Below, one piece after another: positions 35,932 through 39,986 of a stretch of DNA of 52,759 nucleotides. The notes below the pieces were generated by a model that was given only the letters and a program-made list of their open reading frames with translations, was not told where the DNA came from and did not search any database. Position numbers and translations under genes: made by a program. Location: contig JAFSTC010000101.1 of assembly GCA_017450705.1 (NCBI GenBank), forward strand, positions 1 to 52,759, given 5' to 3'. Numbering within the stretch: position 1 is the first letter of the stretch; the number at the start of each line of letters is the position of its first letter. Source of the stretch: Lentisphaeria bacterium (GTDB taxonomy: Bacteria; Verrucomicrobiota; Lentisphaeria; Victivallales; Victivallaceae).

Positions 35932-35959
35932 TTGACAAACGGGAGAATCGGGATATATT
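35932..35959 (+). promoter_or_regulatory. Promoter of the tyrosine-kinase operon
   Basis: TTGACA (35932-35937), 16 bases, TATATT (35954-35959): a near-consensus promoter. A leader of about 90 bases precedes ATG at 36059. The rest of the 181-base gap after the YgiQ gene holds only a short GC palindrome (35883-35892) followed by T's, a weak terminator at best. Confidence 0.78.
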
Positions 35960-36058: not shown

Positions 36059-37651
36059 ATGAAAGAGTACGACTTCTTCTTTTTCTTGAACCTCTTTCTC
36101 GCGAGGTGGAAAAGGATCGTTCTCTGCGCGTTCGTCGCCATGGCGGCGACGTTTGCCGTCTGCAAATACTGCATCAAGCCGGTGTACTCATCATCCGTCA
36201 CCATCTTCTGCGGGCGCATCCTGAATGAAGCCTCGCCGCAGAACATGACGCAGAGGCAGTTCATCACCGATTACACCGGTTCGCTGAATATCGGACTGCA
36301 GCTGGTGAACGACTACCGTGAACTGCTGAAATCCGACCGCATCAAGGACAAGGTCCTGGAGGCGGTGAAGCCCTATATCTCCCGGCCGAGGTTCTATTCC
36401 CACGTCATCGTCAACGCCGTACGGCAGACCCGCATCATTTCCATCGAAGTGCAGACCCATGACGCGAAACTCTGCCAGATCATGGCGAACGCCTACGCCG
36501 ACGCCTTCATCGGAGAGATCCAGAACATCATGCACATGCAGAACTCCCAGATCATCGACCGGGCGAAACTTCCCGAATGGCCCATTCAGCCGAAGCCCGT
36601 CAGGATCGCCGCCGCGGCGTTTGTCCTCGGCGGTCTGCTGGCCTACCTTTTCTTCTTCACGATGACGCTGCTCGACTCCACCATCAAAAATCCCGATGAG
36701 GCCTCGTCTCTTCTGGCGCTTCCCATGATCGGAACGATCCCCCAGGACGAAGAGCTCACCGACGAAAACTACAACGGCGATCTCGTTCTCTCCACTGCGG
36801 GCGGTTCCAAATCGACGGCGCTCTCGGAACATTTCCGCGCCGCCCGCGTGAATCTCCAGTACAGTATCGTCAGCAAGAAGGAGCAGGGGCTCGTCTACAT
36901 CATCACCAGTTCCGTTCCCGCGGAGGGCAAAAGTTTCAACGCCTCCAACCTCGCCGCCTCGATGGCTGAGTCCGGCAAGAAAGTCCTCCTCGTCAACTGC
37001 GATCTGCGCAAGCCCACGCTCCAGAAGATCTTCAAATGCCACGCCGAATTCGGACTGGTCAACTATCTCATCGGAGAAAAGAGTTTCGACGAGATCGTCC
37101 GCAGAAACGTCATGGATCTTCCTCTGGACGTGATCTTCTGCGGTCCGATCCCGCCCAACCCCGCGAAGCTCCTCGTATCGGAGGAATTCGAAAAACTCGT
37201 TGAGGAGCAGCGGAAAAATTACGACTGCATCTTCCTGGATACGCCGCCCATTCTTTCCACCGCGGACGCCGTCATGATCGGCAAATGTGCCGACGCCGTC
37301 GTGATGGTCGTGCGCTGCGGATACACCCACTCCAAGCTCGTGCAGCAGTCCATCGACGAGATCAAACGGGCGAAACTCAATCTGGTGGGCATGATCCTGA
37401 ATCGTTATCAGGACAGCGTGACGAAGCGCGGCTACGGCTACGGTTACAGCTACGGCTACGGCTACGGTTACGGCTACGGTTACGGCTACGGTTACGGTTA
37501 CGGTTACGGCGAGGATGAGCATGCACGGAAACATTCGTGGTTCTCCCGGTTGACCCGGAAGATCTTCGGTGAAAAATCTCCCCGTCATCACCACCGTCAT
37601 CATCACCGCCACACCGACGCCGGCGGGAGCGGTGACGGGCAGGATTCATGA
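36059..37651 (+). CDS. Wzz-type bacterial tyrosine autokinase with Gly-Tyr and His-rich tails
   Basis: A 530-residue inner-membrane polysaccharide co-polymerase fused to a BY-kinase. Helices at about 17-38 and 181-205 bracket the Wzz-like periplasmic part. The cytosolic kinase has Walker A SSVPAEGKS (284-292; K291), A' LLVNCDLRKP (310-319, where the usual first Asp is Asn) and Walker B IFLDTPP (391-397). The C-terminus carries 13 tyrosines alternating with Gly or Ser (residues 459-483), the autophosphorylation cluster, then a His-rich stretch (HHHRHHHRH). It would control exopolysaccharide length or export. The stop overlaps the phosphatase gene (ATGA). No glycosyltransferases are adjacent. 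Confidence 0.9.
   Translation: MKEYDFFFFLNLFLARWKRIVLCAFVAMAATFAVCKYCIKPVYSSSVTIFCGRILNEASPQNMTQRQFITDYTGSLNIGLQLVNDYRELLKSDRIKDKVLEAVKPYISRPRFYSHVIVNAVRQTRIISIEVQTHDAKLCQIMANAYADAFIGEIQNIMHMQNSQIIDRAKLPEWPIQPKPVRIAAAAFVLGGLLAYLFFFTMTLLDSTIKNPDEASSLLALPMIGTIPQDEELTDENYNGDLVLSTAGGSKSTALSEHFRAARVNLQYSIVSKKEQGLVYIITSSVPAEGKSFNASNLAASMAESGKKVLLVNCDLRKPTLQKIFKCHAEFGLVNYLIGEKSFDEIVRRNVMDLPLDVIFCGPIPPNPAKLLVSEEFEKLVEEQRKNYDCIFLDTPPILSTADAVMIGKCADAVVMVVRCGYTHSKLVQQSIDEIKRAKLNLVGMILNRYQDSVTKRGYGYGYSYGYGYGYGYGYGYGYGYGYGEDEHARKHSWFSRLTRKIFGEKSPRHHHRHHHRHTDAGGSGDGQDS
37430..37510 (+). repeat. In-frame 6-bp tandem repeat (GGYTAC) encoding the Gly-Tyr tail
   Basis: Thirteen consecutive GGC/GGT(or AGC)-TAC units encode the tyrosine cluster of the autokinase. 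Because each unit is 6 bases, slippage adds or removes a Gly-Tyr pair without breaking the frame. One unit is interrupted by Ser (AGC at 37448-37450). Confidence 0.92.
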
Positions 37652-38388
37652 AAGACCTGCATTCCCACCTTCTCCCCGGTCTGGATGACGGTGCGCAGTC
37701 CCTCGCGGACACGGAAAAGATGCTGAAAACAGCATCGGCCTCGGGGATATCCGTCATCGCCGCGACGAGCCACTATTCGCGGGAAACGGACGGGAAATAC
37801 GACGAGGCCTTCGAAAAAGCGGAGAACCTTGCTGAAAAGCATGGTATCCGGCTCCTGAAAGGAACCGAATACGATCTGGAGTACATTGCGGACGTCCCCC
37901 GGGAAAAACTGCGTCCCATCGGCGCAACGAAGTTTCTTCTGGTGGATATGAACCGCAACTATATCGTTCACGCCATGACGAATCTTTTTTTCGAACTGAA
38001 ACTCGCCGGATTTCAGATCATTTTCGCCCATCCGGAGAGGATGCTTCGGGCGGACGACCTTGACAAACTCATCAACATCCTGACCGAGAACGACATCTAT
38101 ATCCAGATGGACTCGGGGAGCCTCGTCGGACGCTACGGACATCTCGCCAGAAAAAACGCTTTCCGCATCCTCGACCGGGGCGGCTGTCATCTGCTCGGAA
38201 ACGACGCGCATAATGCGCACCATTTTCTTTTCCGGGAAAGCCGCACCATTTTAAACAAGCATTACGGTCCGGGTCTTTTCGAACTTCTTGCGGAAAAAAA
38301 TCCCTCCGCGCTTCTTGCCGGGGAAGATCTGATCCCCTCCCCGAAACGCAAGGGTTTCTGGGAACGCCTTCTGCACGGCAGAGGGTGA
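37648..38388 (+). CDS. CpsB/CapC/YwqE-type PHP tyrosine phosphatase
   Basis: A 246-residue metal-dependent protein-tyrosine phosphatase of the PHP fold. MKDLHSHLLPGLDDGAQS at the N-terminus is diagnostic. Further metal ligands are in AATSHYSRE, GTEYDLE, FAHPERM and LGNDAHNAHH. It is expected to dephosphorylate the tyrosine tail of the autokinase encoded just upstream, with which it shares an ATGA overlap. This kinase-phosphatase order is the Gram-positive CpsD/CpsB style, although the kinase here is a single-chain Wzc-like form. The end lies 15 bases from the convergent Wzz-like gene. Confidence 0.92.
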   Translation: MKDLHSHLLPGLDDGAQSLADTEKMLKTASASGISVIAATSHYSRETDGKYDEAFEKAENLAEKHGIRLLKGTEYDLEYIADVPREKLRPIGATKFLLVDMNRNYIVHAMTNLFFELKLAGFQIIFAHPERMLRADDLDKLINILTENDIYIQMDSGSLVGRYGHLARKNAFRILDRGGCHLLGNDAHNAHHFLFRESRTILNKHYGPGLFELLAEKNPSALLAGEDLIPSPKRKGFWERLLHGRG

Positions 38389-38403: not shown

Positions 38404-39927
38404 TTACTTCTTCAATTCTCCGCCGGAAAGAGCCGTGTGGAACCGGAGTCCCGCGTACACGCCGTTGACTGCGATGAAAAGCAGGAAGAGGATCGCGATG
38501 TAGTACTTGAGCAGGACGTGGCACCGGGAGATTTTCAAGACCTCTCCGGTCGTCACGAAAAACTGCCGGTCGGAGAGATACCGTTTCATGATCAGTTCCC
38601 GGAAGTCATGGACCTTGCCGCAGAGAAGGAGAAGTTCGTCGAACATCCTCTTCTCAAGCTGTTTGAATTGCTCGGAAGACGCGGTTTTCTTACGTTGATC
38701 GTCCTGGGTCAGCTGCTTGAGCAAGTGCTCGTAATGGGACTTGGTCGCATTGAGCTCGGCCATGTTCTCCCTGAACTGAAGCGCGTCGGCCGCGTATTTC
38801 TCACGCAGTCCGATACTCTGCGAACCGCGGATCAGCGCCGCCAGAGAGGCGAAGAAACTGCCGTCGAGATTGTTCAGAGCAAGAGACGGTTCCTGTTCGG
38901 CCTTGGCCGCCGCCTTCGAGACGGGGGCGGGATTCCTGGCCTGCAGGATGTTGATGCCTTCCGCGGCGCCCTCATACCTTTCCTTCAGAACTTCGATCCT
39001 GCGCTCGAGGTCAAGGATGGTGGAACGGAGGAACACGTCGTCAACGGTGCTTCTCTTGTAACCGGGATTTTCAAAGACAAGCATGAGAAGGGGCCGGATG
39101 CGGTGGAGTTCCAGATCCTGCAAGCGGCACAGGATGTCCTCAAGGGATTCGCCGGAAGCGAGGGAAACGTTTTGCCCCATGACCAGCGTCTGAAGATCCC
39201 CGCATGTTCTCTTCAGATCCTGACAGACCAGTCTTGCGCGGTCCAGCGTGATCAGCAAGCCGTCCGCGGCGACGCCGTCGCGCAGGGCCCGGACCCGGGC
39301 GATGGACTCTGGTCTGGGCATGACCTTCGCCTCGAGTTTGGAATAGACGTCGAACCAGGTCGCCGGCACCTGCCGGAGGATGCGGCAGCTCTCCTGCGGC
39401 GAAAGCTTCCAGAAGGAGGACATGGCGATCTGCACGGAGGAGTGATCCAGTTTCTGGAGCGCCTCGGCATATTCGTTCTCAAGAGACTTGAGTTCGACGA
39501 GCGAGATAGTCTTGCTGCGATACGCAAGCTTGCTCTGGAAAGATGCGGCAAGGACACTTTTCTCCACGTCGATCCCGCTGATGTAAAAAAGCTTGCAGAA
39601 GTCACCAAAAGGCATTTTTCTTGCGAGATCGTTGTTCTCGTAGATCTGCCGTAAAACGGCCGTCGAAATGATGTCGTTCGCGCTGAAGGGCCTGTTACTG
39701 GGATAGACGATCGTCCGGCCGTTCCGCTGCAGCTGAACGGAGATCGGGCAGACGTAAGCCGATTCGCAGGGGCAGAGAAGAAAACCGGCGAGCGCGAAGA
39801 ACAGAAGGACGGCCAGACTCGTCACGGCGAACAAAATCATCTTTTTCCAGTACCTGCGCACGAAACGGATGATCTCGCCGAAACCGATCTCCCGCGAGGA
39901 TTCTTCCAACTGAACTGAGCCGGACAT
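38404..39927 (-). CDS. Wzz-like membrane protein with long coiled coil, kinase domain absent
   Basis: A 507-residue protein with one helix near residues 30-52 and another near 475-495, enclosing a large, mostly helical periplasmic region with several coiled-coil stretches (for example SLENEYAEALQKL and ILDLERRIEVLKERYEG). This is the shape of polysaccharide chain-length determinants, but sequence support is weak and the periplasmic part is much larger than in classic Wzz. The ATG at 39927 is chosen because AGGAG lies 9 bases before it; the ATG at 39936 would abut that site. It converges on the autokinase-phosphatase pair, so a shared exopolysaccharide role is likely but inferred. Confidence 0.72.
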   Translation of the reverse strand: MSGSVQLEESSREIGFGEIIRFVRRYWKKMILFAVTSLAVLLFFALAGFLLCPCESAYVCPISVQLQRNGRTIVYPSNRPFSANDIISTAVLRQIYENNDLARKMPFGDFCKLFYISGIDVEKSVLAASFQSKLAYRSKTISLVELKSLENEYAEALQKLDHSSVQIAMSSFWKLSPQESCRILRQVPATWFDVYSKLEAKVMPRPESIARVRALRDGVAADGLLITLDRARLVCQDLKRTCGDLQTLVMGQNVSLASGESLEDILCRLQDLELHRIRPLLMLVFENPGYKRSTVDDVFLRSTILDLERRIEVLKERYEGAAEGINILQARNPAPVSKAAAKAEQEPSLALNNLDGSFFASLAALIRGSQSIGLREKYAADALQFRENMAELNATKSHYEHLLKQLTQDDQRKKTASSEQFKQLEKRMFDELLLLCGKVHDFRELIMKRYLSDRQFFVTTGEVLKISRCHVLLKYYIAILFLLFIAVNGVYAGLRFHTALSGGELKK

Positions 39928-39986
39928 ACTGTGCATCTCCTAAAATACTCCCGAACGTTCTGCCGCAAAAGTATAAACACGGCGAT

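Follow-up and report, generated by a model that had tools for sequence, protein, structure and literature searches.

A putative capsule-type phosphotyrosine switch apart from polysaccharide genes in a Lentisphaeria genome

A draft genome of a Lentisphaeria bacterium (3.97 Mb in 117 contigs, 97.4% complete) carries a two-gene pair, predicted to encode a BY-kinase with a Wzz domain and a phosphotyrosine phosphatase, that is probably an intact capsule-type switch turned orphan and working in the manner of Bacillus PtkA-PtpZ or of Wzc-Wzb. The pair was analyzed within contig C73 at its full length of 52,759 nucleotides (hereafter, the window). Judged from the encoded proteins, it is a coupled kinase/phosphatase switch of a known kind, and what is unusual about it is its location.

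Architecture of the pair and its known counterparts

The following features were recognized in and next to the pair:

35932..35959, + strand: sigma-70-like promoter, TTGACA-N16-TATATT, 11/12 consensus match, ~100 bp upstream of the kinase start
36059..37651, + strand: one-chain Wzz-domain and BY-kinase protein, 530 aa (PF02706, PF13614, TIGR01007 and PDB matches)
36107..36178, + strand: first transmembrane segment of the kinase, at about residues 17-40 (hydropathy windows)
36596..36679, + strand: second transmembrane segment of the kinase, at about residues 180-207 (hydropathy)
36917..36934, + strand: Walker A motif of the kinase, PAEGKS, intact
36995..37009, + strand: Walker A' motif of the kinase, NCDLR
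37232..37249, + strand: Walker B motif of the kinase, FLDTPP, intact
37430..37510, + strand: Gly-Tyr (GY) tail with 13 Tyr; in the DNA a 6/12-bp tandem repeat (37429-37510, score 136)
37586..37612, + strand: His-rich end, HHHRHHHRH, residues 510-518, after the basic, partly hydrophobic SWFSRLTRKIF
37648..38388, + strand: CpsB/CapC (PHP) phosphotyrosine phosphatase, 246 aa (PF19567, PDB match YwqE)
38404..39936, - strand: convergent neighbor, 510 aa, with the Wzz-type layout transmembrane segment, coiled coils, transmembrane segment

An earlier note on this DNA had proposed a single-chain Wzz-kinase followed directly by a coupled CpsB-type PHP phosphatase, and profile and structure matches bear out both assignments. 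The kinase matches Wzz (PF02706, E = 1.6e-9, above the cut-off), AAA_31 (PF13614, E = 3.4e-13) and the polysaccharide biosynthesis tyrosine autokinase model TIGR01007 (E = 3.8e-46, 157 bits against a curated cut-off of 108), with Wzc (E = 2.7e-38), Etk and a CapAB chimera as PDB matches. Based on hydropathy and alignment, the two transmembrane segments of the Wzz domain flank a short periplasmic domain of ~140 aa, a loop that resembles CpsC/CapA rather than Wzc, such that direct contact with Wza is unlikely. By its motifs, the window kinase does not look like a pseudokinase itself. Its Walker A' has Asn in place of the first Asp of the usual DxD, a substitution that is common in its clade (most close relatives have it) and variable across the BY-kinase family; given this Asn, the strength of the predicted kinase activity is uncertain.

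The phosphatase matches CpsB_CapC (PF19567, E = 2.4e-33, 115.9 bits against a cut-off of 27) and, in the PDB, Bacillus subtilis YwqE (E = 1.2e-25) followed by CpsB. The PHP metal-site motifs HxH, AHPER and DAH are retained, and H5/H7, H42, H128 and D186/H188 are invariant among the relatives. The kinase stop and the phosphatase start overlap as ATGA, and the two genes are co-inherited (Mantel r = 0.92, p = 0.0004). The sigma-70-like site is a consensus match only, with two sites found against 1.3 expected at a 9/12 threshold; it lies outside the DNA stretch common to the orthologous pairs, and a TTGACA...TATATT arrangement was also read by eye upstream of the ortholog in locus L294.

Three known systems offer points of comparison. 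The TkmA-PtkA-PtpZ system of B. subtilis (YwqC-YwqD-YwqE) combines a Wzz-type activator, a BY-kinase and a PHP-type phosphatase outside of the eps operon, and PtkA-PtpZ is an example of a module of this type with many target proteins (PMC4304235). The window likewise has a Wzz domain, a BY-kinase and a YwqE-type phosphatase outside of an eps operon. Unlike in Bacillus, the activator and kinase are fused, the kinase ends in a 13-Tyr GY tail and a His-rich segment, and there is no linked Ugd, a gene that belongs to the Bacillus operon. The short-loop Wzz domain, the BY-kinase with a C-terminal Tyr tail and the CpsB family phosphatase are shared with CpsB-CpsC-CpsD of Streptococcus and CapABC of Staphylococcus, whereas in the window the C and D parts are fused, the copy lies outside of a capsule cluster (though its orthologs lie inside) and the host is a diderm, as inferred from the Wza genes of relatives. 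As in Escherichia coli Wzc-Wzb (PCP-2a), the membrane part and the kinase form a single chain with a Tyr-rich tail and a PDB match (see above), but the short periplasmic domain lacks the long helical bundle of Wzc and so has none with which to reach Wza, and the phosphatase is of the PHP type, as opposed to the low-molecular-weight Wzb.

The ring of unphosphorylated Wzc is kept together by tails that reach into neighboring active sites; progressive tail phosphorylation weakens the ring stepwise and breaks the octamer, and the phosphatase resets it (PMC8285477). By analogy with Wzc and CapAB, the kinase domains of the window protein would assemble as a ring in which each tail enters the active site of its neighbor and is phosphorylated stepwise; the ring would collapse once enough Tyr are phosphorylated and would re-form as the phosphatase removes the tail phosphates. 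The 13 evenly spaced Tyr could provide a ratchet with more steps than that of Wzc.

Gly-Tyr tails and phosphatase linkage among relatives

The count of 13 alternating Tyr followed by a His-rich tail, as first read from the letters, is exact: one Gly is replaced by Ser, and the order at the C-terminus is the GY run, the basic stretch and then HHHRHHHRH. The underlying tandem repeat is far from chance, with TAC used for all 13 Tyr and a mixture of GGC and GGT for Gly. The description of the tail as extreme is relative: GY tails in the group typically carry 9-15 Tyr, as do those of all 11 CpsB-paired kinases in the first relatives set (of which nine are complete and two split over contigs). Runs of at least six GY were found in 43 of the class's 198 genomes, and the loci retrieved from that subset encode BY-kinases. 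GY runs are also frequent outside of the class, in Bacteroidota and other phyla, in a search that was built partly on YGYGYGYG and hence favors them. The tail as an unusual trait was therefore rejected. A basic C-terminal stretch after the GY run is widespread as well (in 55 of 80, the final 15 residues carry a charge of at least +3). BY-kinases of the class repeatedly have His-rich stretches of up to 10 His beyond the Tyr tail, as in the ortholog L293 and also in L283, L287 and L052, so that the His-rich end is not a quirk of a single sequence; as the earlier note suggested, it might bind metal or the phosphatase. Slippage alone is an unlikely source of the tail in most relatives, where the codons are mixed, while the all-TAC run of the window leaves it possible there. 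Literature searches on GY-type tails or on Lentisphaerae kinases returned nothing specific.

Long GY tails keep company with the phosphatase. In the first relatives set, CpsB adjoins 11 of 11 long-GY kinases compared to 0 of 8 kinases with no or irregular Tyr tails (Fisher p = 1.3e-5 uncorrected; p = 0.008 when counting about five lineages each). Among 27 further loci picked by a (GGNTAY)6 pattern, every GY protein is a BY-kinase and most have CpsB adjacent or within a few kb (exceptions L280, L281, L284 and L296), a check that is limited by contigs that end early. L296 (G140:C82), the lone exception among the short kinases, is a GY-tailed kinase with no CpsB for several kb in either direction; a second GY kinase of that genome, L295, does have CpsB.

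Neighborhood and origin of the pair

Searches of the genome with the kinase protein, with Wzz (PF02706) and with CpsB (PF19567) each found nothing beyond the window pair. Pfam searches of the neighbors from 24.6 to 46.7 kb recovered no glycosyltransferase, Wzx, Wzy or Wza; the neighbors include an outer membrane efflux protein, an AMP-binding enzyme, an acetyltransferase, LPG_synthase_TM, a YgiQ radical SAM protein and dehydrogenases. No Wzx/Wzy capsule cluster with linked glycosyltransferases, flippase and polymerase was found near the pair. The earlier note's statement that no glycan genes are adjacent holds for this range with two qualifications, namely the flippase-like LPG_synthase_TM protein 4 kb upstream of the pair, which is not a Wzx, and the convergent 38404-39936 protein with its Wzz-type layout. 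The latter has no Pfam or NCBIfam match, and its structure model (pLDDT 62) finds Wzc 7nhr as a best but weak PDB match (E = 7e-3). Members of this Wzz-like family occur in six other genomes in varied contexts (L194-L199, L200-L204). As a partner of the pair it was rejected, since it stays by ygiQ in the pairless sister species (G005) and occurs apart from the pair in other genomes.

Same-genus relatives of the kinase reach at most 43% identity, and the best relatives (L293 and L294) come from two genomes of another family in the order. Compared to the window, L293 has 72% (kinase) and 69% (CpsB) amino acid identity, with 74% identity of the pair DNA, and L294 has 65% (kinase) and 69% (phosphatase) amino acid identity. 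In the kinase tree, the window groups with G127 (96/91) and then with G136 (100/100), the two genomes of these relatives, and away from every pair of its own genus. Both orthologs have glycan genes around them: L293 lies upstream of a DUF1972/GT1 pair and an RmlB-like gene, and L294 has NusG-like and WecA-like genes on one side and WecB-like, nucleotidyltransferase, UDP-sugar dehydrogenase and MatE-type flippase genes on the other. DNA similarity between the window and its orthologs is limited to the pair, running from 36023 (36 bp before the kinase start) to the end of the phosphatase. In G005, gene content and order match those of the window as far as YgiQ (92% identical), after which ~100 bp lead directly to the 38404-39936 homolog and the pair is absent.

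Given relatives in polysaccharide clusters of another family and an empty site in G005, horizontal transfer of just these two genes is the most likely origin and the simplest account, with differential loss a less likely alternative in this collection of incomplete genomes. The GC content of the pair (0.57/0.55, compared to 0.61-0.67 for most neighbors) is weak evidence for transfer, as the 38404-39936 gene is just as low (0.57). The isolation of the pair is best read as a result of transfer and not, as had been suggested, as evidence for the control of several clusters.

Export systems of the genome and the role of the pair

Polysaccharide export genes sought elsewhere in the genome do exist, in the form of a Wzx/Wzy/Wza system with its own Wzc-like protein. 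Contig C99 carries the genome's single Wza together with a Wzy, a GH9-like protein, a phosphodiesterase and a pyruvyl transferase. Contig C74 carries glycosyltransferases and, as read by eye from the proteins, a putative initiating transferase and a Wzx-like flippase. C74-like and C99-like genes are contiguous in G013, G030 and G033, so that the two contigs probably represent a single system that is split here, and this system is one candidate for the target glycan of the pair. A further cluster on C94 has, by eye, an ABC-2/Wzt-type look.

The gene before Wza on C99 encodes a 660-aa protein (L033:16277-18259, G000:C99). Its structure model finds Wzc-Wza structures (E = 3e-18), and part of the chain also matches BY-kinase domains of known structure. 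The protein has no Walker A, no Tyr tail and no Pfam kinase-type match, and has lost its kinase motifs. Myxococcus EcpK/EpsV and Caulobacter HfsB/HfsA likewise have a Wzc-like fold without Walker motifs or a Tyr tail (PMC12004946), unlike which the degenerate kinase domain on C99 is fused to the membrane part. Such degenerate-kinase Wzc-like proteins are widespread in the genus (the C99 protein, L206, L219 and L137-L145), in most cases with Wza as the next gene, and the distant type has a conserved internal GKGYGYGYGFAFFPVRN motif in the degenerate domain.

The pair and the Wza exporter are distributed independently in the genus. Across 34 genus genomes, three have both, eight only CpsB, 10 only Wza and 13 neither, with no positive association (one-sided Fisher p = 0.90), and mutual exclusion of the two was also not significant (p = 0.47). 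In the sister species (G005, 83% complete), the C99-type cluster is present at 70-88% identity and neither a kinase nor CpsB turned up at that completeness, G013 and G030 have the Wza system and neither kinase nor CpsB found, and five genomes of 94-97% completeness (G006, G009, G010, G017 and G027) have the pair and no Wza found. An obligatory role of the pair in the genome's own Wza system was rejected on this distribution. The proposal of an isolated switch acting in trans is upheld as far as coupling and isolation are concerned, and isolated copies recur in the genus, but a need of the genome's export system for the pair is not supported. The pairs are sporadic in the genus, and isolated ones recur at unrelated positions in several lineages. 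One such lineage (L035, L036, L039 and L217) has a recurring setting, with a HisC-like gene before (where the contig reaches) and PSP1-like (by eye) and MurJ-like genes after. G027 has two GY pairs, both isolated, and a third kinase (L041, G027:C11) with a short Tyr cluster only, beside NusG-like, aminotransferase, flippase-like and glycosyltransferase-like genes (by eye).

Since the pair is unaccompanied by partner genes, it may still tune a Wzx/Wzy-type or other lipid-linked glycan in trans, via the Wzz domain or the phosphorylation of enzymes. Counting against a capsule reading, the isolated pairs in several lineages, most in genomes without Wza, fit a role outside of capsule export. In a less probable reading, the pairs of the genus would be free-standing, horizontally moving two-gene phosphotyrosine modules that have parted from capsule export, with the export systems keeping dead-kinase Wzc-like proteins and the live switch residing elsewhere, often in Wza-less genomes, and governing another process or glycan.

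General phosphotyrosine signaling, as in B. subtilis PtkA-TkmA-PtpZ, with the pair acting on several cytosolic proteins and having little role in glycans, is unlikely. The isolated pairs at unrelated loci, the many pair-bearing genomes without Wza, and the phosphatase's closest relative of known structure, YwqE/PtpZ, with a partner kinase (PtkA) that has numerous substrates unrelated to glycans (PMC4304235), speak for it; the closest orthologs nevertheless lie within polysaccharide clusters, the Wzz domain is retained in the kinase, and Wzy_C/ligase homologs, potential partners, are present in all tested genomes but one.

It is improbable that the pair serves the C99 Wzc-like protein in trans, by phosphorylating it or by joining it in mixed rings, even though that protein combines a Wzc-like fold with the loss of Walker A and Tyr tail, sits with the only Wza and a Wzy, and shares the genome with a single active-looking kinase, that of the window. 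The same system occurs in G005, G013 and G030, where searches recovered neither a kinase nor CpsB, CpsB and Wza lack a positive association in the genus, and the published pseudokinases EcpK and HfsB appear to be scaffolds without active BY-kinases (PMC12004946). A non-functional passenger, acquired recently without a partner and heading to decay, would suit the lack of linked glycan genes and the sporadic distribution with absence from the sister species, but is very improbable given two intact frames with ATGA coupling, catalytic motifs and a Tyr count kept at ~70% DNA identity to the orthologs, a promoter-like site of its own and the persistence of isolated pairs in several other lineages.

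If the preferred reading of an orphaned capsule-type switch is true, the order would hold a natural experiment, with the switch inside a capsule cluster (G127 and G136), alone (the window) and absent at the site (G005), and a role of BY-kinases apart from capsule assembly would be directly testable within one order. The company that long GY tails keep with CpsB is a testable finding of its own, as is the genus-wide contrast between dead-kinase Wzc proteins and separate live pairs, and it is these dead-kinase Wzc proteins beside live pairs that are the part worth following.
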